Source: Nymphaea colorata (lineage: Eukaryota > Streptophyta > Magnoliopsida > Nymphaeales > Nymphaeaceae). From it: a stretch of 64,000 nt of DNA. Every line of letters begins with the position of its first letter. Position 1 is the stretch's first letter. Below, one piece after another: positions 11,546 to 59,600 of the stretch. Below the pieces are notes generated by a model. That model saw only the letters and a program-made list of their open reading frames with translations. It had not been told where the DNA came from and ran no database searches. The position numbers and the translations under genes were made by a program. The DNA lies in NCBI RefSeq assembly GCF_008831285.2, contig NC_045139.1, positions 6,170,204-6,234,203 on the forward strand, given 5' to 3'.

Positions 11546-17499
<5,954 letters not shown>

Positions 17500-25279: not shown

Positions 25280-26984
25280 TCATCTATTGTGAAAAAAATT
25301 TAGCTCTATTCTAATTATTTGGATTTTGACATTAAATTGATTTTCAACAAGTGAAAAAAAATTGCAACAATTCTTTTGTTTGATGTTTGGTGCCTCATAA
25401 GAAAAATCCATGTCATTTTCGTAATATGCACCCTTTAGAGACACTTGAGAATAAGGTCCCCATATGTCGCAATGTATCAACTCAAGAGACTTTAATGAAC
25501 TGATTTCGTATATTTCAAATGGCAAGCGTGATTGTTTTGAGAGAAAGCAAACATCACAACTACAATCCTTTAACTTAATCATAGAGTCATAAGTTTCAAG
25601 TAAATTATTCCTAGAAATCGAAGGATGACCGAATCTCCAATGCCAAACATCTATCAGTGGGTTAAAAGAAAATATTACTAAAGATTGTACGGGTTCTATG
25701 TTGCTAGAGACTTTTAAGTAGTACAATAATGGTCTTGTAGTTCCAGTTCTGTATGAGACAACTGAGATGAGAAAAGACAACAACATCGTTAGAAAACTTC
25801 AGTAGCTTGCTGATTGAGAGCAAGTTGAACTTAAATTCAGGGACAAAGAAAACATGATGCAAGATTAAAGAAGGCGAGATTTTAACGGTTCCAACATGAG
25901 TGGCAAAAACTAATCTATTGTTGGGTAAACAACTGGGAAGTTGATATTCAAGTCTAGAAAAATCAGAAAACAGAGAAAGAGAGGATGTCATATGGTCACT
26001 AGCACCACTACCTAATAAACAGTCATCGGTTTGAGATGAGAACATATCAACAAAGTGGGCCTGTGAAGAAGATGATTTTTTATTCAACATTTGAATCAGC
26101 TTACAATACTCCTCCATAGTAAGTGCAGGGATTTTGGACTCTTGTCTCTGGCTAGCGTTTTTTGAGATTGGATATCCATGTAATTTGAAGCATTTTTCTC
26201 TGATGTGTCCAATTCCTTGACAATAGGTACAAGAGATTTGTGCATGACTATTGTTTCTGGTTTTACTGAATCAGATGTTCATAGTAGCTAGACATGTGTT
26301 TTCGGTAGATGGCAGAGAAGTCGTGCCTTCCTTCATTTTTCTTTCTGAATGACCAATGAGCATACCTTCCTTAAGGGTGGTAGAGGATCTATGAGCAAAA
26401 TATGTCATTGAATGGTACTATAGGTGTCGTTTAGCTCCATTAGGAATTGTATAACTTTTTCTTCATGTTTTTTTTCAACAAGAACCTTCAACGCTCCACA
26501 GATGCAGCTTGGTAATGTGTCATAAGAAGACAACTCATCCCAATGTGGCTTTAACTTTGTAAAATATGTTGCAACCGATTGGGATTCTTGTGAGCCTGCT
26601 GATGGCATATTTTATCTGAAACCTTTTGGGTGCAGTGGTTTGTATGAATCTATCCTTCAAATCAAGATAAAACCATGTTGTTGCAACGCAACCAGTAAAT
26701 ATATTCAGCAGAACTCATTTCAGGTTGAGAAATTGATCCATCAATGAATCCTAATTTATTTTTCGTTGCTAAGGCCATTGACATGGATTAACTCCAGGTT
26801 GAATGGTTGTTTCCATTAAGATGTTGGGAGACAAGCAGAGCTCCTAGCCTCCTAGGTTGTCTGAATGATGCAAGAAATAGGGATTCACAAATTCAGCAGC
26901 AAAGTCTGAGGCATTAGGAGGAGCATTAGTACTTGTTGATGTCATATTAGATGAACCATTATTGTGATGTGTAGATGAAGCCAT
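25280..26984 (-). pseudogene. Copia-1 gag, zinc knuckle, protease and integrase remnants
   Basis: A gag start (MASSTHHNNGSSNM) reads from 26984. A gag segment lies at 26405-26608 (TKLKPHWDELSSYDTLPSC). A CX2CX4HX4C knuckle (CTYCQGIGHIREKC) lies near 26180-26235. The protease active-site region at 25704-26117 reads LGSGASDHMT, with Gly where the family has the catalytic Asp. The integrase HHCC region (HWRFGHPSISRN; CDVCFLSKQSRLPF) lies within 25280-25786. Many stops; non-functional. Confidence 0.82.
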
Positions 26985-27239: not shown

Positions 27240-27754
27240 GCTTTAGAAACACATCTAACAGTCTTTCTTTTATGTCCAGAAGAATTTGTTATGGAAATTC
27301 GGAGGCGCTTCTTGCATTATTGTAAAACTCGCCACGAACGAACTTGATTGAAGATCGATTTGCCTGGTTTGCCGACACGGTGGGGCTAACTGTTGTAAAT
27401 ATACTTGCTTTTACAGTTCTTATAAATTTCATAATTTTTTATTTAGCTGTTGAAATATAAAATAAAACAGAAGCTTTAAATCGGTGAATGATCAAGCGGA
27501 TTCAGAGTAACCAATTCGACTCATTTTCCTGTTTTTGCAACAGTAGCTAGTCTCGTGAGCCACCGTCAAACTGGCGGTACACAGTATCGGTTTTCAGCAA
27601 TGTATCGGCGTGAGTCGACCCATATCAGCATGTGGCAGGTGAATGCAGACTCTGACGAAGTTTTGAAGAGTCAGGAGATGCAATAAAATAAAAGCTTTGT
27701 CAACCGCGCTCGTCATCTCTCCCTTCTTTCTTGTCTTCGTTGCCAACCTGACCA
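27240..27754 (+). promoter_or_regulatory. Upstream region of CRK copy B
   Basis: The proximal 160 bases share blocks with the upstream regions of copies A and E (TGTATCGGCGTG, CATATCAGCA, GTGAATGCAGA, CCTGACGAAG-like). The old copia-1 element ends only about 520 bp before the start codon, so distal elements of copy B lie on its other side. Confidence 0.4.
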
Positions 27755-28279
27755 ATGGCAACCACGCCGTGGTCAAATATCACACGCCTTTCATATCTTT
27801 TAACTCTGCTTCTGGCTGTGCTGCAATTTCCTGCTCTGCTGCACGCGAGCGATGAGGATTATTTCGACATTAAATATTTTCGGAGAGGGAACGACTACCT
27901 TTACGCATGGTGCTCCAGAAGCATACTTGGGTTGTCGCAGACCGACGGGCAAAACGTGGAGCAGCTATTTCGCTCCCTTGTCGACTCCGTTAACCCCACT
28001 GGCTTCTTCAACACTTCCGTCGGCGAAAGTGCCCCTTATGCAACCTATGGCCTCTCGCTCTGCCGCGGTGACTTGACCGCCGATACATGCCGGAACTGCA
28101 TCGCCAACGCCACCGAGAGCGCCAAGGAGGAATGCCCGAATAACAGGTCCGCCATGATATGGATCGGCACCGATTGCTTGCTTCACTTTTCCGATACGCG
28201 ATTCTTCGGGTCCGTTAATCCGAGCTGGCTGGCATGGGCATACAACGCTTCGACCACGCTGTTGAGAAGTATGCAATGA
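27755..28279 (+). CDS. Truncated copy B product: signal peptide plus single DUF26 domain (174 aa)
   Basis: From the copy B start codon the frame runs through the first DUF26 domain and ends five codons inside the inserted LTR, whose TGA supplies the stop. The predicted product has a hydrophobic signal peptide (about 1-31) and exactly six cysteines downstream (C53, C103, C112, C115, C127, C141), including C-X8-C-X2-C. That is the content of a complete Gnk2-type domain, as in secreted single-DUF26 proteins such as ginkbilobin-2. Whether a stable transcript is made is unknown: the element lies antisense, so its own poly(A) signal is not in register with this gene. Function is an inference. Confidence 0.5.
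   Translation: MATTPWSNITRLSYLLTLLLAVLQFPALLHASDEDYFDIKYFRRGNDYLYAWCSRSILGLSQTDGQNVEQLFRSLVDSVNPTGFFNTSVGESAPYATYGLSLCRGDLTADTCRNCIANATESAKEECPNNRSAMIWIGTDCLLHFSDTRFFGSVNPSWLAWAYNASTTLLRSMQ
28255..28259. repeat. Target-site duplication of copia-2, left copy (CACGC)
   Basis: CACGC directly before the LTR start TG; an identical copy is at 33702-33706 directly after the LTR end CA. A 5-bp duplication is the copia norm. Confidence 0.92.
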
Positions 28280-28605
28280 GAAAAAACAGAGATTGCAAGT
28301 GAAGGAAAAACTGTAAGACAGTAATTACGTGGTTCGGCTTGAAGCCTACATCCACGAGAGAAAGGGGAACTCTTCTTCATTCTGTTTTTTTTCACACCTT
28401 TACAGCAGGGGATAGGAACAGATTTTTAGGGATTAACAAGAATCTTCAGTTGCTGCCGTTAGAGATGCTCCTTGATCACGACAATCTTGGTGTGGATGAT
28501 TTGATGAGGAACACACACCAGATCAGCGTCCAATCTTCTCCCAAAAGTGGTAGATCTTCTAATATCTCTTTACGAGATTTTCGTCCCATCTCTTTGTAAC
28601 TAACA
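28260..28605 (-). repeat. Copia-2 3' LTR (346 bp, with 36-bp deletion)
   Basis: Matches the other LTR except for two substitutions and loss of the 36 bp that corresponds to 33471-33506 of the right LTR. Its first bases complete the truncated copy B reading frame. Confidence 0.93.
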
Positions 28606-30958
28606 GTATAATGAATGTATGACGATCTCTTCCAAGAGATTTTGTAAGAATGTCAGCAAGTTGAAGTTCACTTCTGACGTGTGGTGTTATAATGGTTCCA
28701 TCCTGTATTTTTTCTCTGATGAAATGGCAATCGACTTCGATGTGCTTAGTACGTTCGTGAAAAACTGGATTTGCTCCAATATAGATAGCAGCCATGTTGT
28801 CACACATTAACCTCATGGGCTCCTCTACTTCAATCTTCATATCTTTCAATAATGCTTTTATCCATACTAATTCACACGTACATGACGCCATAGCTCTGTA
28901 TTCTGCCTCTGCACTTGATCGGGCCACAACCGATTGTTTTTTACTTTTCCAAGTCACCAAGTTTCCTCCGACAAAAGTACAGTATCCTGTTGTAGATTTT
29001 CGATTGTTTGGATCCCCCGCCCAATCAGCATCACAGTAACCAATGACATCCATTTTCTGATCTCGTTTCATCACGATCCCTTGTCCAGGAGTTCTTTTTA
29101 AGTATCTCAAGATTCTGTGAGCAGCTTCAACGTGTCTTGACTTTGGGTTGTGCATAAATTGACTTACCAGGCTGACAGCATAAGTGATGTCTGGTCGAGT
29201 GACGGTCAGGTATATGAGCTTCCCAACCAATTTCTGAAAACTTTGAACATTTTCAATTCCTTCTCCTTCATCTTTCTTCAATTTGCAATTTATCTCAAGA
29301 GGTGTGTCTGCAGCCTTTGCTCCCAGGCATCCAGTTTCCTTTAAGAGGTCTAGAGTATATTTTCTTTGGCATATAAAGATTCCATTTTCTGAGTGCGCCA
29401 CCTCTATACCCAAGAAGTACCGTAGGGTTCCAAGGTCTTTTATTTCAAATTGCTGATTGAGATAAGTTTTGACGTGTACCATGAACTCTTTATCATCACC
29501 TGTCAATATGATGTCATCTACATAAACAAGTAGAATAGTTATTTTTGAGGATCGAATAGCAACAAACATTGTATAATCAGCGCTGCTACGCTTAAATCCA
29601 ATCTTAGTTAGTGCTTCACTTAGGCGTGAAAACCACGCTCGAGGGGACTGCTTAAGGCCGTAAAGAGCCTTTTTTAGTTTGCACACATACCCTTTCTTAT
29701 GTTGTATGCCTTGAGGAACTTCCATGTAAACTTCTTCATTGAGTTCTCCATGAAGAAAAGCATTCTTGACATCAAGTTGTGCTAGTTTCCACCGTTTGAT
29801 TGAAGCAACTGAAAGAAGAGTTCTTACTGTATTCATCTTAGCGACTGGAGCAAAGGTTTCATTGAAGTCTACTCCCTCAGTTTGAGTGAAACCTTTTGCA
29901 ACGAGGCGAGCTTTGTACCGTTCGATAGTTCCATCATTGTGATATTTGATCTTGTATATCCACTTACATCCGATGACTTTCTTCCCTTCAGGCAGTGGCA
30001 CTATCTCCCAGGTTTGATTTTTGTTCAACGCGGACAACTCTTCTTGCATAGCTCTCTGCCAGCTTATGTTTGTATTAGCTTCCTCATAGTTTTTTGGCTC
30101 ATGATGAGAGTAGGTATTGAGAACATAGGACTTGTATGGCTTTGATAAGGTATTGAAATTGATGTAGTTTTCTATGGAGTGGTTGTGTTGAGTCGATAAA
30201 TAGGTATAAAAGTCATTCAGTTTTGATGGTGGTCTAGAGGGACGGGTTGATCTTCTAAGGGTTGGTTCAATGCTTTGATTTTGGTTAGACAACAGTGGCT
30301 GCAAATCTTGGTTTAGGTTACTCTCTTGGTTTTGGTTTTCTAAGATGGTAGGTTCACTAGGTTGCTGGTTTTGGTTTTTGGTATGAGTTTGAAAAATATC
30401 AACAAGAGGAAGAGAGAGAGGAGCTAGAGCAAGAGGAGCAGTAACAGAGCTAGTGCCTTGATCTTGAGTCTCCCCCTGACTTGGTGCCTCATAATAGGAT
30501 TCATTCTCAAAGAATTTCACATCCCGAGTTACAAAAAACTTTCTTGATTTTGGGTCAAAGCATTTGTAGCCACTTTTCTTGCTTGAGTACCCAAGGAAGA
30601 TGCATTTCAAAGCTCGCTTTTCAAGTTTGTTTCGAAATCTCTCTTGTATATGCACAAAACATTTACACCCAAAAATTCTTAAATGTCTAATAGAGATTGT
30701 TTTGTGCATTAGAACTTCAAGAGGAACTTGATTTTCAATACTAGAACTGGGAATTCTATTAGCAAGATAGCAGGCAGTACCAACTGCTTCTGCCCAAAAA
30801 ACTTGAGGTACGTTCATATGCATCATAAGGGCACGGGCAATATTAAGAAGCTGTCTGTTCTTTCTTTCTGACACCCCATTTTGTTGGGGAGTCCCTGAAC
30901 ATGTAAGTTGAGGTTGTATCCCTTTTTTGTTCAGGAATTCCTCAAACTGTTGGTTCAC
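28559..30958 (-). CDS. Copia-2 reverse transcriptase and RNase H (with integrase C-terminal part)
   Basis: A 799-codon open frame. It starts within the integrase core (GTPQQNGVSERKNRQLLNIA, holding the catalytic Glu), continues through the KWIYKIKY and FAPVAKMNTVRTLLS blocks to RT (LAQLDVKNAFLHGELNEEV; LLVYVDDIILTG, the YVDD active site), then RNase H (IGYCDADWAGD; SSAEAEYRAMAS; MCDNMAAIYI; ADILTKSLG). The frame runs directly into the 3' LTR after TKSLGRDRH, so the usual C-terminal tail, stop and polypurine tract seem deleted. It is the downstream part of a polyprotein separated from integrase by a one-base frameshift near 30961-30966, so it is not translatable as a normal Pol. Confidence 0.9.
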   Translation of the reverse strand: MNQQFEEFLNKKGIQPQLTCSGTPQQNGVSERKNRQLLNIARALMMHMNVPQVFWAEAVGTACYLANRIPSSSIENQVPLEVLMHKTISIRHLRIFGCKCFVHIQERFRNKLEKRALKCIFLGYSSKKSGYKCFDPKSRKFFVTRDVKFFENESYYEAPSQGETQDQGTSSVTAPLALAPLSLPLVDIFQTHTKNQNQQPSEPTILENQNQESNLNQDLQPLLSNQNQSIEPTLRRSTRPSRPPSKLNDFYTYLSTQHNHSIENYINFNTLSKPYKSYVLNTYSHHEPKNYEEANTNISWQRAMQEELSALNKNQTWEIVPLPEGKKVIGCKWIYKIKYHNDGTIERYKARLVAKGFTQTEGVDFNETFAPVAKMNTVRTLLSVASIKRWKLAQLDVKNAFLHGELNEEVYMEVPQGIQHKKGYVCKLKKALYGLKQSPRAWFSRLSEALTKIGFKRSSADYTMFVAIRSSKITILLVYVDDIILTGDDKEFMVHVKTYLNQQFEIKDLGTLRYFLGIEVAHSENGIFICQRKYTLDLLKETGCLGAKAADTPLEINCKLKKDEGEGIENVQSFQKLVGKLIYLTVTRPDITYAVSLVSQFMHNPKSRHVEAAHRILRYLKRTPGQGIVMKRDQKMDVIGYCDADWAGDPNNRKSTTGYCTFVGGNLVTWKSKKQSVVARSSAEAEYRAMASCTCELVWIKALLKDMKIEVEEPMRLMCDNMAAIYIGANPVFHERTKHIEVDCHFIREKIQDGTIITPHVRSELQLADILTKSLGRDRHTFIILLVTKRWDENLVKRY

Positions 30959-31752
30959 ATATTCCCCCCATTATCAGATCGAAGCTTCTTAATTTTTGCA
31001 CCATACTGAGTGTATACCAAATTGTAATAATCTTGAAAAACCTTAACAACTTCACTTTTATTTCTAAGAAAAAATATCCATGACATGCGAGATTTATCTT
31101 CGATAAAAGACACATAATACCTGTATCCCGTATTGGATTCCACAGGAGCTGGTCCCCACACGTCTGAATGTACCAAATCAAAAAAATCCGTAGATCGATC
31201 AGTGGATGTTTGAAACGGCAGCCTAGTTGACTTCGAATATTCGCAAGCATCACAAGAGTGTTCATTAATGGTGACATTAGGAACACGTATTTTCAAGCTT
31301 CTGTCTGAAATATGCCCAAGTCTTGCGTGCCACATCTGGTATTCTTGCCTCTTCTTTTCATTATTGGTGTGTACTAAGAAGCTTGACTCTGGAGTCTCCA
31401 CCATATAAAGCCCATTTTGTTCCCGTCCTCTACCAATCTCCCTCTTCGTTTCCAGATCCTGAAATATCACATTCTTGGGAGAGAAAACAGCCATACAATT
31501 GTAAGTCTTTGTCAACTTGCTAACTGACATCAAACTAGTGGAGAGATGTGGTACATAAAGAACTGAAGATGATTTATTTTCAAAAAAAGAAAATTTTCCA
31601 GTTCCATCAACTGCAATATGTGATCCGTCAGCTGAGAAGACGGATTTTTTGTTCATATGATCAATAGTGGTCAGCCTTGTCAGATCATTTGTCATCAACA
31701 ACCCATATAGATTTACTAGAATGTGTGAGGAGGGCAAGGTTGTTACCTTCAA
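30955..31752 (-). pseudogene. Copia-2 protease/integrase frame (frameshifted at both ends)
   Basis: 265 codons with the integrase zinc-binding HHCC motif (HARLGHISD...CDACEYSKSTRLPF) and the core Asp residues (LVHSDVWGPAPVES; LRSDNGG). The frame breaks at its upstream end, where the gag-protease frame terminates after SIWVVDDK instead of a DSGA active site, and at its downstream end in a run of six G (minus strand), where the frame shifts into the RT frame. The aspartic protease active site is therefore missing. Confidence 0.88.
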
Positions 31753-32761
31753 TAGAGTTGCTGACCGGTTGAGAAGAGACGAGGTTCGTTTTTGAGAATT
31801 TTTGGAAAAATTTCTCTAAGTCCTCTTTTGTAACAAAATGAGCAAGATCAACTTGAGGAGTGGTTGTTGCCTTGTCTCTTGCAGGTTTGCCGACGAGTTC
31901 CCAGCATCTTTCTCGAAGATGACCCGTTTTTTTGCAATGAGAACATTTTAGTTTGCTGCGGTTTCGTTGAAAATTTCCGCCACCACTTTGATTTTTTGAA
32001 TCGCCTTTCCATGTCTCGCCTTTCCATGTCTTGGATTCAGATCGAGCTAGACATGCCATCTTCTCTGGATTTTCTTCATATATGTCTGTGGGATTCATAA
32101 CTTTTCTTCTGGTGTCTTCTCTTTGTATTGCTTGGCAAACTTGATTATAGCTTGGCAAGGGAGTGGTCATGAGAATCTGGCTACGAAGATTCTCATAGTC
32201 AGGTCCAAGACCAGCAAGCACTTTAAATATTTTGTCTTCATCGAATCGCTTTTGATAGATCTCGGCATCGGTAGTGGCTGGTCTGTATTGGGCGAGTTCA
32301 TCATACAGGCTGCGAAGTTTGTTTAAGTAGAGGCTGGTTTGCTTACCATCTTTGGTGAGATTGGCAATGTCAAGTTGTAGCTGATAGACGCGGGCAAGGT
32401 TGTTTTGCTCGCTGTACATCTCTCTCAATGTATCCCATATTTCCTTCGCTGTTTCCTTGTATAGAAATAAACTAGATATGTGAGGTTCCATAGAATTCAT
32501 AAGCCAAGCCATTACCATATCATTCTCAGATTCCCAATCTTCATAGTTGGGATCGTTCTTTGCTGGAGGTGTGATTCGTCCACTGATATATCCTACTTTG
32601 GATCGCCCGCTTAAGAATAGACGGGCAGCTTTAGCCCAACTGAGATAATTGGTGTCGTTGAGGAGAATAGAAGTGATCTTGAGTGTCCCATGGCTCTGAT
32701 CGTGTCCTCCTTTCATACTGCTGGAATTTCCGCTAGATTGGTTACTAGACGTATCTGCCAT
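31685..32761 (-). CDS. Copia-2 Gag
   Basis: 358 codons starting MADTSSNQSSGN. It contains the copia-type gag domain (LNDTNYLSWAKAARLFLSG; IWDTLREMYSEQNNLARVYQ) and a CX2CX4HX4C zinc knuckle (CSHCKKTGHLRERC) about residue 275. The frame continues towards protease and stops at the first break. Gag itself looks intact and could form particles in trans with other copies. Confidence 0.9.
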   Translation of the reverse strand: MADTSSNQSSGNSSSMKGGHDQSHGTLKITSILLNDTNYLSWAKAARLFLSGRSKVGYISGRITPPAKNDPNYEDWESENDMVMAWLMNSMEPHISSLFLYKETAKEIWDTLREMYSEQNNLARVYQLQLDIANLTKDGKQTSLYLNKLRSLYDELAQYRPATTDAEIYQKRFDEDKIFKVLAGLGPDYENLRSQILMTTPLPSYNQVCQAIQREDTRRKVMNPTDIYEENPEKMACLARSESKTWKGETWKGDSKNQSGGGNFQRNRSKLKCSHCKKTGHLRERCWELVGKPARDKATTTPQVDLAHFVTKEDLEKFFQKFSKTNLVSSQPVSNSIEGNNLALLTHSSKSIWVVDDK

Positions 32762-33307
32762 GGCAGGAAATCACTTGATGACAGGCGATATTTAAAAACA
32801 ATGGACTACTCCTTTCCGGATTCTCAAAAAAATCCCACCGATATCAGTCCCATGAGAAGAGACGAAAAAAAACAGAGTTGCACAAATGTAAGCAGCGACT
32901 AATTCTCAAAAAAGTCATTTAACGGACTTACGCAGAAAATCCATTGTCCTCTGTTCATTTCAACGAGTGTCTGCCTCTGTTCTCAACAAATAAATCACAA
33001 TGGAAAAAAAAAAATTTCTTCAGATTTTTTTTTTTCCGTTACCGGGGACCTTGCCGACTGGTGGAGCTCCAATCAAAAACGAGAAACGAGGTTGGCAGGA
33101 GAAGATGGCAGCGAGGAAGGGTGAGATGGGCTAAATCGACATCTCTTACGATGATCTTTTAGGCGTTGCAGAGCAGACTTGATTGGATCGCCCCATTGCT
33201 GAAAAAAACTTAGAATTCCTGTTGCAGAGCAGACTTGATTGGATCGCCCCATTGCTGAAAAAAACTTAGAATTCCTTTTGCAGCGGCTCCTCACGAATCA
33301 TCTCCAA
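32762..33307 (-). other. Copia-2 untranslated leader
   Basis: About 550 bp between primer-binding site and gag start; no open frame of note. It contains a perfect 56-bp tandem duplication (33165-33276). Confidence 0.75.
33165..33276 (+). repeat. Perfect 56-bp tandem duplication in copia-2 leader
   Basis: Copies 33165-33220 and 33221-33276 are identical by eye (begin GTTGCAGAGCAGACTTGATT, end TTAGAATTCCT), indicating a very recent duplication. Confidence 0.93.
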
Positions 33308-33319
33308 GCTCTGATACCA
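33308..33319 (-). other. Copia-2 primer-binding site (initiator tRNA-Met)
   Basis: GCTCTGATACCA on the plus strand, i.e. TGGTATCAGAGC on the minus strand, immediately inside the 5' LTR. It is complementary to the 3' end of plant initiator methionine tRNA, as in Tnt1 and most plant copia elements. Confidence 0.92.
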
Positions 33320-33701
33320 TGTTGAGAAGTATGCAATGAGAAAAAACAGAGATTGCAAGTGAAAGAAAAACTGTAAGACAGTAATTACGTGGTTCGGCTT
33401 GAAGCCTACATCCACGAGAGAAAGGGGAACTCTTCTTCATTCTGTTTTTTTTCACACCTTTACAGCAGGGGTACACCCATTATATAGGTTTCACTTATAA
33501 GATTGAGATATGAACAGATTTTTAGGGATTAACAAGAATCTTCAGTTGCTGCCGTTAGAGATGCTCCTTGATCACGACAATCTTGGTGTGGATGATTTGA
33601 TGAGGAACACACACCAGATCAGCGTCCAATCTTCTCCCAAAAGTGGTAGATCTTCTAATATCTCTTTACGAGATTTTCGTCCCATCTCTTTGTAACTAAC
33701 A
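33320..33701 (-). repeat. Copia-2 5' LTR (382 bp)
   Basis: Full-length LTR, begins TGTTGAGAAG and ends AACTAACA on the plus strand; followed by the CACGC target duplication at 33702-33706. Confidence 0.93.
33479..33488 (-). promoter_or_regulatory. Candidate TATA box of the copia-2 5' LTR
   Basis: ATTATATAGG on the plus strand reads CCTATATAAT on the minus strand, in the middle of the LTR. It lies within the 36 bp missing from the other LTR, so only one LTR would retain the core promoter. Confidence 0.4.
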
Positions 33702-35728
33702 CACGCCATCTGACAACGTGAACGCCCAGAAGTTTCTGTACGGATTGGTGAAGAAGACTGGCAATAACCCGAGGATGTTTGGCACCGAGATAGAAGGGCA
33801 ATTGGGCGGCTATACCAGCTACGGAATGGCACAGTGCACCAGAGACCTCACCATCGACAATTGCATCCAATGCCTCAGCACAGCTATGGAAGAGATAAAA
33901 AATAGGAGTTACAGTCTAGCCCTACCCTGGCTGTTTATTTCCTCCAGCTGCTACATCAGGTATGACACGAGCCCTTTCTTTGCAATCTCAACGCCACCGG
34001 CGCCACCGCCGTCTTCAGCATCAGCATCCCAACCTCCTGCCACTGTAGAATCTCCACCAGGTGAACTTCTTGTTTCATTTCCCCACTCTCTGTTTGCTTC
34101 CTCCATTTGCTTCCTCCAGGTCGAAGCTCATCGTTGCCGCACTGCACTGTCCAGAGATGGAGCAGGGGAGCTGCTGCAGCAGGGACAAGCTTATCTTGCC
34201 CCATGCTTTTGTTGTTGCCTCCCTTTGTTCAGATCATAGATTGATAGTGGCCTTTTGAGGACATTTCAAGATACCAACAACAATAATTGCTGGAAATTAA
34301 TTAAGCTATATTTGTTTAGAAAATTTCTTCTCTTTAACGCATTCTTATGCCATTCATGCGGTACAATCATTATTTTCGATTGCTACATATTATTATCATT
34401 AATTTCTTCATTTAAATTGCCAAATTTTTTGTGAGTTCCTGGAAAATTACATTTATTTAAAAAAATTTCGTCTCAACATTCATTCTATTCCTTATAATTG
34501 CTGCGTTTAATTTTTAATCTTCCATTTTGCTATTTTAAATTGACAAACTTCTTGAGTTTCGCCAAAAAAAAGAAAAGGAAACTGACCCTGAATCAATGGA
34601 CCCTTTTCCGTCTCGAGTTTTCCAAGCAATCAAATTCTCTACTGATTTCTGTTTGACATGTTTTTATGGAGCTAGCCCAATTACTTAAGGCCAAGCTGTC
34701 ATATATAACTTGCACATAAAGAAAAATTTCTTTGACGTAAAAATCTAATTATAAAGAAAGAGGAAACTGAGGAACGGGTCAAAGCAAAACAAACTCTAAA
34801 AAGTTTGTCGATTTTCATAGGTTGAAAATTATAGTTATTGGCGGTCCTTTCTACGATCTGGAACCACGAGAAAAAAAAAAAGTTTGTCATCCATCTTTTC
34901 CCCATCTTCTCCTATCATTTTCTCACTTCCAGACATGCATACACTTGGGAAAACTGAGTATTATTAATTGAATTTTGCTTATCTCAGCTGGAAGTAAAAG
35001 TGATAACCAGAGGAAGACTGCGATTATCATTGGCATTGGCTCCACGGTAGGGATGTTTCTGATAGCAGTAGGGATCTTCATGTTGCTTTTCCGCATCCGA
35101 AAGAGGAAAGAGCTTGCCGGTGAGTTCCATTAGCCAAAAGCAAATATTCCTGATGGTGACTTTACATGAGTTTGCATGTCATCATATGTAAGCTTCATGT
35201 CCCTTCCTCTTGTGGCAGTGGATCTAAGAAGATATAGGAATGAGATGGCTTCACTTGGTAATCTCCCTGAGGATGAAAGAAACGATGAGCTACCTCAGTA
35301 CAGCCTAAAGGCAGTGCAGGTGGCCACCACCAATTTTTCAGAGGAGAATAAGCTCGGAAAAGGAGGGTTTGGCCCTGTGCATAAGGTACACTAATGAACG
35401 CTCTTTCGTTATGATCTTATGACATCTACAGATTTTAATATCTCTAGATTTTTTGTGACGTACATATGCTGCCATGCCCTTGTACCATTTTTATTTTTAA
35501 AAAATGTTATTGCCATGTTTTTTCCCTTGTACTGATATGACGTGCCACAGTTCATTAACGTCGTTGGCTGTTGTTTCCGTCCCTGTGATCAACAAATTTC
35601 CAGCACTGCCTCAAGGAAACTGGATGAACTCACAATGCCTTTGTTTTGCTTTTCTCATGTGCATACTTGTGACTTTGTCACAGCCAATTTCAAGCCAACA
35701 TTTTCTTTTATTCTACTCAGTAGCAGGG

Positions 35729-38221: not shown

Positions 38222-39091
38222 GCAGGGTGAACTCAATGGTCGGGTTGTTGCTGTGAAAAGGCTTTCTGAAAGTTCTGGGCAGGGCTTGAATGAGTTTATG
38301 AATGAAATTATATTGATCGCAAAGCTTCAACACAAGAACTTGGTTCGACTGTTGGGTTGCTGTGTAGAGCGGGGAGAAAAGATGCTTATCTATGAATTCA
38401 TGCTCAATGGCAGTCTTGATGCGTTCTTTAATGGTGATGAATTGCTCTTCTCGTTGTCCTTTAAGACTCACAGCTTTTTAGCGAAAAGTCTCTTGTAAAG
38501 AAAGAAAAGATCAGGGTGGCCTCTGTCGCCTTTGGGTTTTTCAAAACTTTTGAATCCTTTTGGACTAGATTTCCTTGTGAACTAGATAAAAGAAAAGGAG
38601 AAACGCAAACGAAGCGGAAGGGAGGCTTTTTATCTTCCTTATGTGGCGAATCTTCATCTTTGAATTAAATTGAGATATGCTCTTAGCCTATTCGATTTGG
38701 AGAAAGAAAGGTATTTTATTTTGTCGACATTTTTCTCCTTTAAGGGCCCCTTAGTTGATCTTTCCGTTTTGGTTTTACCACATCCGATGTTGAGGGCCTT
38801 GTATATTGCTTTTGGAGTCTATTGATTCCCCTTCGCCTGTGGACATACGCGCATGCCCTTAAACCGCATATATCTGGTCCTTATAAGAACTGATGTCTGC
38901 AGCAAACTAAGCAATATCTCTGTTAAGACAGAAAAATAATTACAGAGAAATGATTGACCTACCAGCACTAGAAACCAAATAAGGATTCACATAAGCCAAT
39001 TTGATGGGTCAATTAGAACAAAATGATCTGAATGGTCTGGTCGTCGGATTCTACTTAAATCTGGACTCTTTATGTTTATTTGTTGCATGTT

Positions 39092-39151: not shown

Positions 39152-40749
39152 AATTTTCTGTTTTTTGTAGACCCACAGAAGCGTCAATCGTTGGACTGGG
39201 AGAAGCGATTCAATATAATTATGGGAAGTGCAAAGGGGATTATGTATCTTCATGAAGATTCCCGGCTCAACATCATTCATCGGGATCTTAAAGCAGGCAA
39301 TGTTTTATTGGATGAACAGATGACAGCAAAGATTTCTGATTTCGGAATGGCCAGAATCTTTAAAGGAGACAACAACCCAAAAGCCACCCAACGTATTGTT
39401 GGAACTCAGTACGTACTAGATTGTGCAAATTTAATGAAATATGCAATTTTCATCTTATGTCAGAGTTCTATAACATGCCAGTACACTATCGAGTTTAACC
39501 TGCGCAAACTTAGCTATTCATTGGCATCTATCTAGAATATCAACGTCCTCAGAAGTCTTGCTTTTTTGTCCTCGGAAGTCTTGATCTCCCTTAATGTATT
39601 TTCCATTCTTTTGTTTGGTAAACAGGTTAATATTTCAGTACTGAGCATATAGAAGGTTAATGAATATTTTCTAGTCAAGTTTCAGAACGGAAGGATTAAG
39701 AATGGCTAAGGACTAGGTTGTTGTTGTTGTGCATGGTTAGATCTGCAAGAGAACCTATCTGACCAGTCAGTATGAAACTAGTTCATACGAAGTATTGTCA
39801 ATTTAGGTCCGTTTGGAGAGCTTTTCCAAGAATGAGGTTATAATAACATGCGCCTGATGCACATCTCCTTGACTCCCTGGACGGCCTGAAGGTCATGGAA
39901 ATTTAGGTTAAAATTCCACTGCAATATGAGCACCTTTCAAACTGAAAAATTTAAGCATTAATATTCACCTGCATTTCTAGCATATGAGTTCTGTTGCTAA
40001 GATTTCACATAAAGAACGAGAGTCTGTCTCACTTAATTGTCTTGCACTTACAGAAAAATAAGCCATCGGCCCATCACATTCTTCGCATGGGAGACGCCAA
40101 CTGGAAATAATGCTATTACTGAAATTAGATGCACCCACCTCGCTAGAAATGGTGGAGGAACTAGGAATTCGCCTTCCATTTGAATAATTAATCAAGGAAT
40201 TTTCCGCTATAATGAGACAGCTAGATATTAACTGCTAATGCAGAAAAAAACTGCAAATAAGGAAGCGGATATATCATCAGAAACAGGGATGAACGACATT
40301 GTTGAATTATGGTTAGGAAATCAGTTATCAACTGATCAGCATATGTGCTTTTCTAACTTTTGCTTCTAAAATTCGCTTCCAAATGCAGGTCCTAAGGCCC
40401 CATCGGTAAAATTTAATTTCAATGAAGACCTAATGATCACGGGAGATTACTCAGAGAGAAATATCTTTGTATTCTGCGTATTATGTCATTTCGAGTTGCA
40501 CTGATTTGCATTTGGCTTTAACGATCTCCTCTGTGCTAATCATTTTCTCTGTGCATTCAATGTTCTGAGCAAACTCTTTTGCTTACTTTGGCAGTGGATA
40601 CATGGCTCCTGAGTATGCCATAGATGGGCAATTTTCCATCAAATCAGACGTCTACAGCTTTGGTGTACTGCTCTTAGAAATTGTCAGTGGTCAGACATAC
40701 GGTGGATTTCACTTTTCTAAAATGGGTTATAGCCTGATTGGATATGTAA

Positions 40750-40786: not shown

Positions 40787-41403
40787 TGTTTTTGTGTGTA
40801 TCATGGTATAGCTAATGGAAATTGGATTGTAGGCCTGGACTCTATGGCACAAGGGGAGTATGTCAGACTTCATAGATCCACTGCTTGGAGAATCCGCCCC
40901 AACAAGTCAAATTTTAAGATGTTTCCACATTGGCTTACTATGCGTTCAGGAGGATCCTGCAAACAGACCCACTATGTCAGCCATTATAAAGATGCTTGAA
41001 AGTGATTCGCCTATGCTTCCAGCTCCCCAACAACCCCCTCTGGCTTTCAGCAGAACCGTCAGCACTTCTAGCAATTTACAGACCACCAGCACAAATGAAT
41101 CCTCTAAAAGTGGCAGTACAAGTTCTCAAAGTTTATTGATATCAAATCCCTCCTTTAGATGATGATCGCATACTATTTATTTGCACGAACAGGTCCAGAG
41201 ATCAGCTAAATGACATTGCAAATATGCTCTCCTTACTTCCGTATGTATTTGATCATCGACTTGTCCCTGGGCACTGTCAACTGTAACAAACAACTGCAGC
41301 AATTGATAAGACTTGTATTGAAGCCACCTGTTTATTTCATGGGCTCAACCATATCGGACAGCAGACGATAGGGATGCTATATCAAACATTGTAATAAAAT
41401 AAT

Positions 41404-47149: not shown

Positions 47150-49400
47150 GCCAGAAATATTAAACTCCTGATCTTGCACAGGGTTGAAATGCAATAGTAA
47201 GACGAGTGGAGGAGGAAGGGGAGGCGCCGGGAGCTGTTTATTGGTATTAACAACAGGTGGTACTGCTGAGTTCGAAATCCAATTATAGATTTACGGCCAA
47301 TTATAGATTTACGGCCTGATTTGTCGTAAATCTGAAATTTTATGTTAGTGAGTTCCGATTTTTTATTTTGAGATAGATTTGTTGCATGATGTTTGTTCAA
47401 AGCTCTTGACGGTTCTCAAGACACATCGAAACTCGACTCTACTTCTTTACTTTCACTCGTGTAATTTTCTGTATGTATTTCTCGTCGATTTTTCCATCCA
47501 ACTCTCTCGAGTGTGCCTCCTTCAGCTCTCTCTTTCTCGTTGTCAAACCATTCACACACTCAACCACCCACTTTTACTATAGTCTCCCAGATGGCGTCAA
47601 GAATCCTTGACTTGTGTGGTGCCTTTTCTTCTTTCTTCCCATTGTCTGCAATTCAGTAGCCTTAGCTCCGTGTTTAGTTCTACCGTTCCAACGGTACCAT
47701 AAGACACTGTACAGCATGCACTCTGCCGTGGCCATGTCCCCGTCGCCGTTTGCCAGAAGCGCATGGCGGTGGCTGCTGAGAGGATGAACGGGAATCATAG
47801 TTGGTAAACTCGTATCTATTAATTCTTTGATTCGATTGAGTTTTAAAATCACTACAACTGAATCGAATAAGTCAAGGTCGAATCAAGTCAAGTTGGGTTG
47901 AGCCATGAACAAGTCTAACCAACCTTGACTTGTGACCCAGTTTTGAAGTTATGATTCTCGAGTCAACCCAACGTGTTTGCCATTATAACAAAAATTAATA
48001 ATAATAAATGTTGCTTACCCCTTTTTTTTTCCTGAAATTTTATTTTCACTTGTGGCCAACTTTTTTTTAATTGTCCTAATTAACTCGAACTACATTCTTG
48101 TATTTAGACAACTTTTTATTCCTAAATTTTGTTATGCATTTCCATTGATATCCATTTTATCAAGTCTCTAATGAACCCAACCCCTTAGTCTTTTGCCAAC
48201 TATAACAAAAATCAAGGCCACTGTTGCTGACCTTTTTTTTTTCTGAAATTTGTTGTCAAGTTAAGAAGCAATTTACCTCGAGTCATTGGTTAATGGTTGA
48301 CTGGGACGCAGACTTTAATCGCCAGACTGGTCGTCATCAATATGAGAAATAGCTGCATGACAAAAATTTTTCTTTAACACCTCTTTTCTGCAGAGTTCTC
48401 AGAGCAAACCTCAACACAACCATCGGCTGTCGACGGCAGATTTTCCACCCCCGCAGGAGTCCGGAGCACGCTGCTACCATAACCCCGCTGCCAACAACCG
48501 CTGTGCCGGAAATTCCTCTTCCTGCACACAGGTTGCGAAAATCTCTCCCTCTCTCTCTTTGTGGACTGTCAGTGAGTGGTTGCAAATGTGCCGGAATCTG
48601 TTAGTTCTTCTAATAAATCTTCTTTTCAATCTCCTCAACTCCAACAGTGCTAATTTTCCTTCTAAATTAGACAAGGTGATTTCGTTTATGCAATCCAATT
48701 ACTCATGCAACAGGCAAGGCTTAAACATTGCCTTCTTTTTGTTCTTTTCACGAGCTCCTTAACTCTGTATAGATGATGTTCTTCAGTTACAAAATCTTTA
48801 GCACCTGTTGGAGGTGCTCATATAAACTGATTTGATGCTAAAATATTCTCTCTCTTTTTGTGACTTCTAACCTTTAGCTCATTACTCATTTTTCTTGCAA
48901 ATTTTTGAGTAATAATAGTCTACCTTTTCCTACAGATTGATGCCTGTTTAGTTTTTCGTCGGACATGTTTGATTCACTGCATGTTCATGTCAAGCAAGCA
49001 TTTTTCCTTGTGATCTATGTATATCTTTGTTAGCAATTATGTTGTTAGAACCCTACCAAGAAGTAGATTTCCGATAAAAATCTGCTGGGATTAAGGCTCC
49101 CCATCTTTTATTAATAGCAAGAAGTAGGTTTATGCAAAAACTGGAATCGAATTAAAGCTGGAGATCATTACTGCTTGTAGCTATAGCTTGTGGAGAACAT
49201 TACTGCTTGTAGCTATAGCTTGTGGAGATCATTACTGCTTGTAGCTATAGCTTGTCACTCGCGTGCTTTAATTATGTTTCTTCTCCATTTAACGCACTTT
49301 TGCTTGCATATATTATACACCACGCAGCAGGGGAGAGAGAGAGAGCCGATAAAATAAAATGGGAAGAGAGAGAGGTCAGCAAATCATTCTTTTTTTAAAA
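47150..49400 (+). other. Intergenic block C-D, duplicated before other copies
   Basis: 47200-47360 matches 53520-54110 (GGGGAGGCG, TTCGAAATCCAATTATAGA), and 47500-47650 matches 54760-54860, so the C-D and D-E intergenic regions are paralogous. 48300-49350 matches 21270-22160. A direct repeat of CCAATTATAGATTTACGG occurs near 47279 and 47298. No conserved open frame seen; CT-rich 48540-48560. Confidence 0.45.
49159..49254 (+). repeat. 32-bp tandem triplication
   Basis: Three contiguous copies (49159-49190, 49191-49222, 49223-49254) of a unit starting TGGAGATCATTACTGCTTGT, with one substitution in copy 2. Single-copy in the paralogous block near 21990. Confidence 0.93.
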
Positions 49401-49405
49401 AAATC

Positions 49406-52400
49406 TCTACGGCCTCGTGCAATGTTGCGGCGATGTCCTCTCTGCTGCTTGCTGGACCTGCATCTGCAATGCCGTGGATAGGGTCAAGGCCGCCTGCCCA
49501 AATAAGAAGTCCGCCACGGTATGGTTTGGGTACTCCTGCTTACTTCGTTTCTCTGATACACAATTCTTCGGGAGCATTGATAAAAGTGAGAAGATTTGGT
49601 TAACCTCCAAGCAAGCAGAAAACCTGCCCACCCGGGATTCCGGAGGCTGCCCGGGGTTTTGTGTACGAATTAGCCGGAAATGCTGCCATTAACACAAAGA
49701 TGTCCGCTACCAAGGTAGAGGCGCAGGATGGGTATAGCAGCTATGGAATAGCTTAATGCTCCGAGACCTTGTGCTTTGCAGGGTGTGCTTCCAGCATGCT
49801 ATTGATAAGATTGAGAATGACAACTCACTAGGCCCAAGGTGGCGGTCTCTTTCCTAGAGCTGCATCATCGGGTATGACACCAAGCCTTACTTTCTGATCT
49901 CACAGGCTCCGGCGCCGGTGCCGTCGTTGTCATTAGCATTCGCCGCGGCTGCTGTTGTAAAACACCCACCAGGTTAAGTGGTGAACTTCTATTTCATTCC
50001 CCTACCCTCAATTCGCTTTGAATAGTTGGCGGACTGTCACAAGATGAGGTATGGGAGCTAAAGGTTTTGGGACAGAGCTCACCTCTGTCCTTTCGTCTCT
50101 GCTTTTCCCTGCTGACCGATTTTGAATCTGCCTCGTTTCTTTTCGTTGCCCGGATCATAGAGCGACAATGAGCCCCGGCAAGCCTGGGGCATCCTGTGCA
50201 CGGAACCAGCTTTCACAGACAGTAGCCTTTTTAGGATGCATACAGGGTATCGCTCTTTGGGTCGCAAACGGTGACAAGTTGAAATTGAAGTCTGCCGGAG
50301 GTTGCTGGTTGGTTAAATATCTAAAACTTATACAATTAAATATATCATAAACTGTGGTTAAGAACACCATAGTTGTACGTTTCCACGGATATCATGTTTT
50401 AGTGATGCAAATGGTGGAACCTATTGCAGGAAATTTGCTTTATGGCTTGTATACTTCCAACTTTACCTATCATTTTCCCACTTCCAGACACGCACTTGAG
50501 AAACTGAAAAAGATCTATTGAACTTTCATATATATCATAGCAGATAGTAGAAGTGGTAACTTGAGGAGAACCGTGATTATCACTTGCTCCACCGTGGGGA
50601 TATAACTACTTATAGCAATATGCATTACCGTTTCGGTTTTCTGCGTCGAAAGAGGGAAGATCTTAAAGGTGAGTTCCACATTTTCATGGCGGCTTTACAT
50701 CACTTCTAAGGTTACCATACGAGTGCTTCAATTTTCTTTCCTCTTGCGGCAGAGGACCTAAGAAAACACAGCAGTACTGAGATGGCTTCACTGGGTAACC
50801 TCATTGAGGATGAAAGAATTCATGAGCTACCTCAATACAGCCTAAAAGCAGTGCAAGCGGCCACCAACAATTTGTCGCAGGAAAATAAGCTCGGAAGAGG
50901 AGGATTTGGCCGTGTGTATAAGGTACTTCAATAAAAACTCTTTCACTATGACATCTAAGAGTAAATTGAATCCTGTAGAGACTTTTGCTGATATAGAATC
51001 AACTATCCCCTTACTTTTTTTCATCTACACGGCACCATTGTCTTCCCCTTGACCCTTGCACTCCTGGGAGATGCTACAATTCGTCCTTGAATGTTATGGG
51101 CAGTTTTGCCCTTCCAGTTGTCACCGCTTTTTGTCAATCTTCCGTGCACTTTTCAGCAATGGATCACGAAACTGGTTGAGCTTATGTGACTGTAACAAAG
51201 ATCGCTTTGTCTATTCCTCTCAGGGAGAACTCAATGGTCGGCTGGTTGCAGTGAAAACTTTTCATCAAAGCTCTGGCCAAGGCTTGAAGGAGTTTACGAA
51301 TGAAGTTATATTGATGACAAGGCTTCAACACAAGAACTTGGTCCGTTTACTGGGTTGCTGTATAGAGCGGGGAGAAAAGATGCTTATCTATGAGTTCATG
51401 ACCAATGGCAGCCTTGATGCATTTTTTTATGGTGATGCACCTCTCTTCTCATTATTCTTTTTAGATCACAGATTTTCTGCTAAATAATCTGTTGCTGTTC
51501 CTGTTGGTGCTCAAAATTGAGTAGTAAGTGCATCTACATATGTGATGAATGGGGAGAACGAGAGAGAGAGACTAACGTAGGGGTTGTTTTTAGACCCAGA
51601 GAAGCGTAAATCATTGGACTGGGAGACACGATTCAATATAATTATTGAAAGTGCAAGGGCGATTCTGTATCTTCATCGAGATTCCCGGCTCAATATCTTT
51701 CATCGGGACCTTAAAGCAGCAAATGTGTTATTGGATGAGCAGATGACAGCAAAGATTTCTGGCTTCGGAATCGCCATAATGTTCAGTGGAGATAATGACC
51801 CAATAACCATCGATCGCATTGCTGGAACACTGTATGTACAAGATTTTTGTCAGTTCAGTGCATTATGCAGTTTTCATCTTACGGCTTGTTAGAATTCTAT
51901 GCATGCCTGTCGACAATCTAGTTTCGCATCTAAATAGAAACTTGACTTGTTACAAATTCTTGCTTTCTTGTTCAATTGATGTTATGGTCAGATACCTTGT
52001 TTTCCCTTAATGTGGTCTGTTTTTTTTTTTCAATATGGTAAACAGTTGAATATTTTAATACTGAGCATATCAAGAGTCAATGGTTATTGTTCCAGTCAAG
52101 TTTCAGAAAAAAAAAAAAAAAAAGAATTGCCATGTTGTAGGCATGTAGCTATGCGAGAGTACAAACATACGACGGGATGACTCAAAAATTGCATGTTGTG
52201 CCTACACCACATCTGACTGTATGATTCAAGTGCCCCTTAGCTAAAAAGTCCTGTGTTTGCCACTGCCTCTTAGTATGAAACTAGTTCAGGTTGCAAGCTT
52301 GGGATCTGGTTTGGGAGTTTTTTCAAGAACGAGATTATAATCACATGCATGCACATCTACTATGCACAGCCTAAAGGTTTCGTGGCAGTTAAACATCCAA

Positions 52401-53087
52401 CTCAACTATGATCTCCCTTCAAGTTGAGAGAAATTAAGTATTATATGAGGTTCACCTACAGTGCTAGAATATGGAGTAGTTCTGTCGCTAAAATCTCGCG
52501 AAAAGAGTGCCCAGTTGCACCTAAAATCTCCTCTATGCTAATCATTTTCTCTGTGCATTCAATGTTATGAACAAACTCTTTTGCTTACTTTGGCAGTGGA
52601 TACATGGCTCCTGAGTATGCCATAGATGGGCAATTTTCCATCAAATCTGATGTCTACAGCTTTGGTGTACTGCTCTTAGAAATTGTCAGTGGTCGGACAA
52701 GTGGTGGATTTCGGTCCTCTCCAATGGGTTGTTGCCTCAATGAATATGTAACTCTCTCTCTCTCTCTCTTGTGTGTGTGTGTGTGTATCATGGGAGCTGA
52801 TTCATGAAGTTGAATTGCAGGCCTGGACTCTATGGGGCAACGGGACAATGTCAGATCTCATAGATCCCGTGCTTGGAGAATCAGCTCCCACAAGGCAAAT
52901 TTTAAGGTGTTTGCACATTGGCTTGCTATGCGTTCAGGAGGACCCTGCAAGCAGACCTACTATGTCAGCCATTATACACATGCTCGAATGTGATTCTCCA
53001 ATCCTTCCATCTCCGCAACAACCCTCTCTGCTCTTCAGTGGTAGCATCAGCAATGCTAGCAGTTCAATGGACAGTACAAACGAATGA
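49406..53087 (+). pseudogene. CRK copy D: decayed ectodomain, open kinase exons with DFG to GFG
   Basis: Exons: 1 (partial) 49406-49972, 2 50544-50668, 3 50753-50922, 4 51224-51431, 5 51594-51831, 6 52597-52747, 7 52821-53087. The signal peptide and first part of DUF26-1 are missing: homology to copy E begins at TACGGCCTCG. Exon 1 has stops (for example in GGAATAGCTTAATG) and frameshifts; exon 2 has a TAA within the membrane segment and a one-base deletion. Exons 3-7 remain open in phase with LGRGGFGRVYK, VAVK, FHRDLKAAN and APEYA, but the metal-binding DFG Asp is Gly (SGFGIAIMF), so catalysis should be lost. The tail is shorter than in A or E. Either a pseudogene whose 3' half has few disabling changes, or a source of a kinase-dead cytosolic fragment; I favour the former. 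Confidence 0.85.
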
Positions 53088-53380
53088 ACGATCGTCCCTC
53101 CAGAAGAGGCAGCACAGATTCTTAAAGTTTACCGATGTTGGAGATGTGCATCGCATATTTATTTGCATGAACGGATGTAGCGATATGCTCAATGACATTG
53201 CCAGTATGCTCTCTGTAAGCTATTTGGTCATGCGACTTGTTCCACTGTTGGGAAGACTTATAATTAAGGCATCTGCTTTTGCCTTTTGGCCCAACAGCTT
53301 GCTTTGGGAAGACTAGTAATGCGTGGTTATGTGAGACTAGCAGATGATGGGGATGCTAGATCAATACATATTTTAACAAT

Positions 53381-56662: not shown

Positions 56663-59600
56663 ATGGTAACGACGCCGCGGTCATTAATCGCTCGCCTTGC
56701 ATATCTTTCTCTTCTTGTTGCTCTGCTGGAATCTCCTCCATTCGTGCATGCGAGCGTTGAAGATGTTCTGAGAGAGAACCGCGACATCGACAAAATCTGC
56801 TCGACAAGTGCAGATAGGTTGTCCTCCACCTACGGACAGAACTTGGAGCAGCTATTCCGCTCCCTCGTCGACTCCGTTTCCTCCACTGGTTTCTACAATA
56901 CCTCCATCGGCGAAAGCCCTTACACGGCCTACGGCCTCGCGCAATGCCGCGGCGACGTCCCTGCCGTTATATGCCGGAACTGCACCGCCGTCGCTGTCGA
57001 GAGGGTCAAGGTCTTGTGCCCAAATAACACGTCCGCCATGATATGGCTCGAACCCTGCTTCATTCGCTTCAGCAATACGCGGTTCTTCGGAGTCCTTGAT
57101 AGGAGGAAGGGGATCCTTTGGAGAGACCCCAATTCCACGATCTCTGGCGACTTTGATGCCAAAGCATTGATGTACCCATTGGTGAAGGAGGCCGCCAATA
57201 GCCCGAAGATGTTTGCTACCAAGATAGAGCAGCAGGTTGGCTATACCAGTTATGGCATGTCGTATTGCCCCAGAGACATCACACCGGCCGATTGCAAGGT
57301 GTGCTTCGACGATGCTACCAAACAGGTCGAGGCAAATGGCTCACTTGGCCAAGTGTGGCGGTTACTTTCCCCGAACTGCGTCATCGTCTACTTCACCTGG
57401 CCTTTCTTTCTATCCTCACCGGCTCCTTCATCGCCACCAGCCCCATCAGGTGAGCTGTCCTGTTTTCTTCGCCTACTCTCCAATCTTTTTCTACCGTTGG
57501 AAACTCATAGTTGGGGGAGTGCAGCAAAATAGAGCAGGGGAGCTGCTGCATTAAGGACAAGCTTATCTTTCGCGTCCTTTGCATTTTTGCTGCAATCTGT
57601 TCAGGTCATAGATAGATAGTGATCTTCTGGGGACATTTCAAGTTAACAACAATAATAATTCCTCAGAAACTAAATTTATTTAGAAATTTTCGTATCCTTG
57701 TCGCATTTTTGTTATCATTAATCCGGTAACAACATCAGTTTCGTATCTTATAATTCCTGTGTTACTTAAATTGCCATGCTTTTCTTATAATTCCTTGAAA
57801 ATTACATTTATTTATAAAATTTGCTGTCCTTTCTCCATTTTATGTCATTAATGTGATATCAACATTAATTTCGTGTCTTATAATTGCTCTGCATTTTAGT
57901 GTTTTGGTAGTTTAAATTGGCACATTTTGCTGAGTTTTGCCCAAGAAAAATTAAACGAGGCTCTGATTTTGCCCAGAAACAGTATTTAATATTTATTTAG
58001 TGCAAATGCTCCTAAGCCGTGCTCCCGATGTTTGCTACCATGCAGACATCCAGTATCTGATACTCAACGATGGAGGATAAATGCGTACCTTCCCTTGGCC
58101 ATCTCATGTTTAAGGCTGAAACTTTTGACCTAGCGATGGAGATGCAGGTCGAATCTGTTATGCGCATTTTGCCCATTTGGTCGTGCTATGTCAAACCCCC
58201 CTGAAACTGACCTTTATCTGGTCGCGCATACTGAATCAACTTTTTTCATCCCCACCTTCCACGCAATCAAGTTCACTCTGTTGATCACTGTTCCACAAAT
58301 TTCATCTAACATGCCTGTGCTTTTAGATTATTACTTCAGCTATTCTGTCCTCTTTAATGGAGTTTGGACCTGATGGTGCGCCTGTGATTTTATTCTTCCT
58401 CTAAAACATAGGAATTCTCTTTCGCATTTGATGTAGAAGGTGTGCTGTCAAATGGGCTCAAGCTAAACTTAGGGACAAGTTCTCATATCAAAACTTGTAT
58501 ACAAAGAAAATTTTCTTTTGCTTGTATGCATGTGAAAATCTAAATATGTAGAAAAATGAGGAAATTGAAGAACAAGACAAAGCGAATAAACTCTTATGAA
58601 GAGTTTCACGATTTTCAGAGATTCAAAATTATAGATTTTCAGAAATCTTTTCCCCCATTTGGAACAAGTGAAAAAAAAAAGCGTTTGACTACCTCCCACT
58701 TTTCCTATTGTTTTCCTGGTTACAAGCATATACGTGGGAAAATTGATTAAGGTTAATGAATGTGCATATGTCAGCAGGAAATAAAAGTGGTCATCAGAAG
58801 AGAATTGTGATTATCTTTTGCTCCATTGTGGGGGTAATACTTTTATCAATAGGGATATTCATGGTGCTTTTCCGTCGCAGAAAGAGGGAAGAGCTGAATG
58901 GTTAGTTCCCTAGCCAAGAGCAAATGTTTATGGTGGCTTTACATGATTTAGCATGTGACCATATATAACCTTCATTTTTTTTCCCTGCTTGTGGCAGAGG
59001 AGTTAAAAAGATATGGCAGTGAGATGGCTTCGCTGGGTAACCTCACGGAGGATGAAAGAAACCATGAGCTACCTCGGTACAGTATGAAAGCCGTGCAGGC
59101 AGCAACCAATAATTTCTCGGAGGAGAATAAGCTTGGAGGAGGAGGATTTGGCCCTGTGTATAAGGTACTTCAGTAAAAGCTCTTTCATCATGACATCTAA
59201 GAGTAATTTAATCCTGTGGTGACTTTTAACAATTTTACTATATCTCTTTGTATCTTTTGATAAACATATGATGCCATTCCCCGGTACCATTTTTTTAGGC
59301 AGTTGCCATGTTTCTGCTTGTACCCATGTGATATGCCACAGTTCATCCATAAACGTTGTCGGCAATTGTTCCCTTTTCAGCTTTTTGTCAACGTTACCTG
59401 TAATTCATAAATTTCCAGCAATGGGTCAGGAAACTGGTTGACTTACAATGCCTTTGTTTTTCCTTTCCCATGTCTGCACCTGTGGCTGTGTAACATAGAC
59501 AGCTTTGTCTTTTCCTCTCAGGGTGAACTCAATGGTCGGCTTGTTGCAGTGAAAAGGCTTTCTGAACATTCAAAGCAGGGCTTGAAAGAGTTTACAAATG

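Follow-up and report, generated by a model that had tools for sequence, protein, structure and literature searches.

A young copia insertion splits a clustered CRK receptor kinase gene of Nymphaea colorata and leaves an open reading frame for a predicted secreted single-DUF26 protein

The window analysed in this work is the whole stretch of 64,000 nucleotides of Nymphaea colorata DNA located at C2:6170204-6234203 in genome coordinates. It carries several copies of a CRK receptor kinase gene and overlaps a cluster at C2:6.18-6.42 Mb, in which at least 19 matches to the residual open reading frame described below, itself included, were found among the 150 matches scored. Copy C in the window is fragmentary, and copy D (49276-53140) is interrupted by stops in both exon 1 and exon 2 and resembles a pseudogene. 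The first exon of copy B is split by a retrotransposon, and the features of this gene are as follows.

27584..27727, plus strand: stretch with the proximal promoter blocks common to copies A and E (blocks 27584-27649, 27609-27661 and 27703-27727)
27755..28279, plus strand: residual open reading frame (ORF), 174 codons and TGA, the stop supplied by the LTR
27755..28259, plus strand: exon 1a of copy B, 168 native codons and one base, coding for the signal-peptide-like N-terminus and the complete DUF26-A
33707..34060, plus strand: exon 1b, DUF26-B (four of six cysteines) and stalk, cut off from the start codon
34988..35119, plus strand: exon 2, transmembrane region
35219..35385, plus strand: exon 3, kinase start (GKGGFG)
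38226..38433, plus strand: exon 4, kinase (VAVKR)
39171..39408, plus strand: exon 5, kinase (HRDLK, DFG)
40595..40745, plus strand: exon 6, kinase (APE)
40833..41162, plus strand: exon 7, kinase end and stop codon

When the two flanks are rejoined with one copy of the target-site duplication, the frame runs uninterrupted through DUF26-B, and copy B becomes a CRK of 694 amino acids with six GT-AG introns and all five kinase motifs listed above. The exon ends were set by us from paralogs and GT-AG boundaries, which means that the splice sites are given by construction and the open frame is not. This protein has the CRK architecture, with the signal peptide recognised by hydropathy and the transmembrane segment by eye only. 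The element is the sole coding lesion found in copy B, and the intact joined frame rules out that copy B was a pseudogene already before the insertion. In the kinase, dN/dS of copy B was 0.21 against paralog A and 0.26 against paralog E, which indicates that its kinase was under constraint until recently; for the ectodomain halves the ratio was 0.54-0.77.

All six cysteines are present in DUF26-A of copy B. DUF26-B has four (212, 221, 224 and 250) and is without the first and fifth, which in PDLP5 are described as pairing with each other (PMC6368629). DUF26-B of copies A (12038-12388) and E (57137-57409) is likewise without these two, and their absence in A, B and E is consistent with a pair lost together. 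No empty insertion site was found in the assembly with a 25-mer search allowing up to two mismatches, and the next best protein match to the residual ORF, the best among the 150 scored genome matches, was 60% identical. A second allele or a near copy is thus not visible to these searches.

The inserted element and its target site comprise the following features.

28255..28259, plus strand: target-site duplication CACGC, left copy
28260..28605, minus strand: left LTR (the element's 3' LTR), 346 nt, with a 36-nt deletion
28562..30970, minus strand: open frame matching SH3_retrovirus and RVT_2 (reverse transcriptase) within 28562-30826; it enters the left LTR
30958..31815, minus strand: open frame in a different phase, matching gag_pre-integrs and Pol_BBD within 30955-31695
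31688..32761, minus strand: gag frame with Retrotran_gag_2 and Retrotran_gag_3
33308..33319, minus strand: putative primer-binding-site-like 12-mer adjoining the element's 5' LTR
33320..33701, minus strand: right LTR (the element's 5' LTR), 382 nt
33702..33706, plus strand: target-site duplication CACGC, right copy

Both LTRs run in the same direction with termini TGTTGA...CTAACA, and the 5-bp duplication stands on either side. Direct LTRs of the TG...CA type with a 5-bp target-site duplication are features of Ty1/copia elements, as is the domain order on the minus strand of copia-type gag, gag_pre-integrs and RVT_2; the integrase core gave no match in the three element pieces scanned. Two changes of frame interrupt the coding region of the element, one near 31.7-31.8 kb and the other near 30.96 kb, at the two ends of the open frame at 30958..31815. 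A sequencing or annotation artefact is ruled out by the exact target-site duplication, the LTR pair and the in-frame empty site. Beside the right LTR, a unit of 56 bp is repeated about twice (98%) in the element at 33165-33283. Beside the left LTR (28606-28650) no clear polypurine tract was seen by eye, and the element frame enters this LTR. A piece of another copia-type element with a gag_pre-integrase match lies at 25280-25786, about 2 kb upstream of copy B. Scans for tRNA genes and Rfam families across the window gave no hits.

Across 346 aligned bases, two substitutions separate the left from the right LTR, and the left one has in addition a single 36-nt gap. Substitution rates of 1.3e-8 and 7e-9 are in use for dating LTRs. 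With the former, the point age of the insertion is 0.22 My (interval 0.03-0.80), and with the latter 0.41 My (interval 0.05-1.49). The right LTR was furthermore compared with the whole genome assembly (407.8 Mb, 783 contigs), which gave at least 41 matches, a lower bound with 40 of 102 candidates scored. From these 41 matches 21, both window LTRs among them, were compared with each other. The left window LTR has no substitution relative to an LTR on C4, so both substitutions appear to sit in the right LTR. In nine further LTR pairs, assigned by us from distance, six showed no substitution (one of the six covers just 226 nt) and the remaining three showed 3, 6 and 8. Since the window LTRs differ by two substitutions only and six of the nine other pairs by none, the insertion is, as judged from sequence divergence, young and the family recently active.

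The 36-nt gap removes a TATA-like box from the left LTR, and the right LTR keeps it. This deletion is absent from all 20 other LTRs compared; of these, two carry different large gaps (41 and 157 nt), and in two a pair of 5-nt gaps was seen. The TATA-like stretch is kept in its exact form in 19 of the 21 LTRs, the exceptions being the left window LTR and one LTR on C6. Its loss in the LTR facing the residual ORF may reduce antisense transcription into exon 1a.

The initial annotation had placed the insertion after the first DUF26 domain of copy B with six cysteines kept, and had described an ORF of 174 residues with about six influenced by the LTR and a TGA contributed by it. Both statements hold, and the insertion site is the linker between DUF26-A and DUF26-B. 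Residues 1-168 are native exon. Codon 169 consists of one exon base (28259) and two LTR bases, so that the tail reads LLRSMQ before the stop. One Pfam domain, PF01657 (Stress-antifung/DUF26), was matched with E = 1.1e-17; the cysteines are found at 53, 103, 112, 115, 127 and 141, and the motif C-X8-C-X2-C is present. One complete DUF26 with six cysteines and this motif are among the features of an sdCRRSP, a secreted protein with a single DUF26. Among 12-mers, hydrophobicity is highest for the one beginning at residue 12 (hydropathy only), the best 19-mer after residue 40 reaches only 0.68 on the Kyte-Doolittle scale, and four N-glycosylation sequons (86, 118, 130 and 164) lie past the hydrophobic N-terminus. 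The residual ORF encodes a signal-peptide-like start followed by one complete DUF26 domain, and its product is probably secreted.

The length of this ORF is not beyond chance, because 168 codons are inherited exon and the element supplies a stop soon in every phase, beginning 3, 17 or 40 nt into the element in the three phases. The insertion itself is more than chance. With domain limits of our own (codons 153-255), exactly one whole DUF26 would remain after an insertion at 15% of coding positions or, counted within exon 1, at 36% of positions. Dated by the LTR divergence, the 504 nt of the residual ORF should have taken up about 1.5 substitutions since the insertion. The neutral chance that frame, start and cysteines are kept is about 0.90 (0.68-0.99), counting substitutions only and ignoring indels despite the 36-nt loss seen in one of the LTRs. 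For the 1581 nt of abandoned downstream exons, which are also stop-free, it is about 0.83 (0.51-0.98). Recent inheritance accounts for the open ORF; with downstream exons equally intact and neutral survival likely, its openness is no sign of selection, and we have discarded it as evidence of function.

A domain lacking its C-terminal strand, which the initial annotation had named as a possible failure, is disfavoured as far as alignment, strand prediction and Foldseek can tell. Native sequence continues for 27 residues beyond the sixth cysteine, and the final predicted strand (residues 141-146) is wholly native as well. A profile search with the residual ORF finds PDLP5, PDLP8 and both Gnk2 entries. 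Structure prediction gave a mean pLDDT of 38.8 for the full 174 residues with four window sequences, and 49.8 with a pTM of 0.52 for the mature part with eight window sequences. Foldseek on this low-confidence mature-part model gave 80 matches at E <= 10, and all six at E <= 0.001 were DUF26 structures, Gnk2 included. Foldseek is not independent of the profile search since it also uses sequence. In the model the fold of the stub looks complete.

The conversion of a receptor kinase into an ORF for a secreted single-DUF26 protein, as originally proposed, therefore stands with respect to the signal-peptide-like start and the complete domain; the accompanying analogy to antifungal, mannose-binding proteins is not supported. 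The mannose contacts of Gnk2 are given as N11, R93 and E104 (PMC13058244), and in a profile alignment these fall on S54, M134 and S146 of the residual ORF, i.e. all three are changed and the stub does not have mannose contacts of the Gnk2 type. In 14 distinct genomic places, the residual ORF included and one without the first position, none has N, R or E at the three contact positions. For DUF26-A of variable-clade Arabidopsis CRKs, the relevant part of PMC13058244 describes no mannose-binding residue as conserved. In the experiments described in PMC9521807, a single DUF26 of OsRMC binds neither mannose nor its protein target CBM1, and the tandem does. The N-terminal domain of maize AFP1 is reported with S, R and E at the contacts (PMC5923269), so S at the first position alone would not exclude a lectin, and M and S at the other two weigh more. 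Additionally, a conserved hydrophobic interface is described as common to DUF26-A and DUF26-B (PMC6368629), and by analogy the stub would expose it.

We infer the following course of events. A young Ty1/copia element landed in reverse orientation in the DUF26-A/DUF26-B linker of an otherwise intact copy B. The allele would thereby have lost the receptor, because DUF26-B, the transmembrane segment and the kinase are out of the reading frame of the start codon. If the native promoter is active and a transcript ends inside the element, the secreted DUF26-A stub could be made; a transcript running to the distant exons would carry an early stop before the downstream introns and would be exposed to nonsense-mediated decay. 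We consider it probable that copy B is now a recent receptor-null allele with a foldable stub, which at present is most likely without a selected function and heading to decay, as other truncated CRKs in the same genome have done.

These other loci are examples and not a rate, because most of them were picked for short frames. At L009:2586-3095 (minus strand, near C2:6417139) a decayed relic of a single DUF26-A, with its start and two cysteines gone, adjoins a copy with an open two-domain exon. On C11, five loci (L010, L012, L016, L017 and L019) hold DUF26-A remains with assorted lesions. Such single-domain relics support decay as the fate of the stub. The locus L011 is less damaged than L009 and those five and contains at 761-1327 (C11:22458260-22458826) an ORF of 188 codons with a signal-peptide-like start and a complete DUF26-A. 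It ends in the linker by a nonsense codon, past which DUF26-B goes on in frame; from its sequence, it is a second single-DUF26 truncation, reached via an ordinary lesion. Since it keeps all six cysteines, L011 counts against decay as the explanation. The loci L014, L015 and L021, fetched alongside, have longer two-domain frames.

Several further points count against a decaying null allele. The insertion has left the proximal promoter untouched, including the blocks shared with A and E; the domain kept is the one with six cysteines and not the one with four; its fold is apparently complete in the low-confidence model; and a truncated receptor can keep an effect, as described for Xa21D.

A sub-case that overlaps the null allele is silence at the protein level, where read-through transcripts are destroyed or the locus is silenced together with the element, and neither receptor nor stub is made. 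We regard this as possible, and hold it tentatively. A stop codon upstream of introns favours mRNA decay, and in copy B six introns, together with about 5.4 kb of inserted sequence, lie downstream of the early stop. On the plus strand of 28260-28700 there is no AATAAA, only one AATGAA (28610) and three TGTAA motifs. Polyadenylation signals in plants are loosely defined, however. A copia insertion can also bring a premature polyadenylation site, as described for COPIA-R7 in RPP7 (PMC5056178).

An expressed stub with a role in the apoplast is unlikely, whether as a lectin-like defence protein or, compare Xa21D, as a decoy for the ligand or partners of sister CRKs. The complete DUF26-A with its signal-peptide-like start and the remaining native promoter blocks would allow it, and there is precedent both in Xa21D/Retrofit (PMC3036077, PMC5056178, PMC12640976) and in the atypical monocot sdCRRSPs that are inferred to descend from variable CRKs (PMC6368629). 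Against it stand the three altered Gnk2 contacts, the inactivity reported for the isolated OsRMC domain (PMC9521807), the hydrophobic interface that would be exposed (PMC6368629), and an insertion too young for selection to show. A bolder form of this idea, which we think even less probable, is a single-DUF26 protein at birth, where one linker insertion has produced a stable apoplastic DUF26-A that serves as a decoy or dominant regulator of sister CRKs. If this were true, the orphaned kinase half still in place would be proof of ancestry for a newborn DUF26-A protein.

Insertions spliced out with an intron have precedents in maize waxy, and the flanking coding sequence of copy B is intact, but removal of the element in this way, with a near-normal receptor still being made, is very improbable given that a few simple consensus patterns revealed no strong donor in 27755-28700.

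The null allele heading to decay remains our preferred reading. Should the stub not be made or be inactive, which is the likelier outcome, copy B would be an unremarkable null allele within a receptor cluster of rapid turnover. The reduction of a clustered receptor kinase to its ectodomain by a retrotransposon is already known from the sources on Xa21D and Retrofit, and this rice case is the closest precedent. Xa21D was reportedly shown by Wang et al. in 1998 to be truncated by the copia-like element Retrofit. Copy B resembles this case as described, in that a retrotransposon interrupts the coding sequence of a receptor kinase gene from a cluster and an ectodomain ORF without transmembrane region and kinase remains. 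The difference is that Xa21D has an LRR ectodomain and is reported to confer partial resistance in rice (PMC3036077, PMC5056178, PMC12640976), which PMC12640976 takes as the effect of a compromised receptor, whereas the copy B stub is a single DUF26 of hypothetical function. The likeness to COPIA-R7 in RPP7 (PMC5056178) is that a copia insertion in a defence receptor gene alters the transcripts made, which for copy B is a prediction; COPIA-R7 is intronic and regulatory, whereas the insertion in copy B is exonic and breaks the frame.

Gnk2, an sdCRRSP of the ancestral type, shares with the stub a signal peptide (signal-peptide-like in the stub), one DUF26 with six cysteines and the same fold family, and is set apart from it by the replaced mannose contacts and by the origin of the stub domain as DUF26-A of a two-domain CRK. 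A likeness in composition is found in the atypical monocot sdCRRSPs, inferred to go back to variable CRKs that lost their kinase, transmembrane region and DUF26-B (PMC6368629), and in OsRMC; all are regarded as CRK-derived secreted DUF26 proteins minus transmembrane region and kinase, with DUF26-B also lost in the sdCRRSPs. These are settled genes, and OsRMC keeps both domains, whereas copy B is a fresh single insertion with the remainder of the receptor alongside. A CRK truncated by a transposable element was not found in the open-access literature, judged by titles, nor was a report of the first step from a CRK to a secreted single-DUF26 protein in the open-access literature searched. Copy B could be a snapshot of how single-DUF26 proteins arise, with the function of the stub being putative, and with donor receptor, cutting element and residual ORF together in one place the idea of a CRK origin becomes directly testable.
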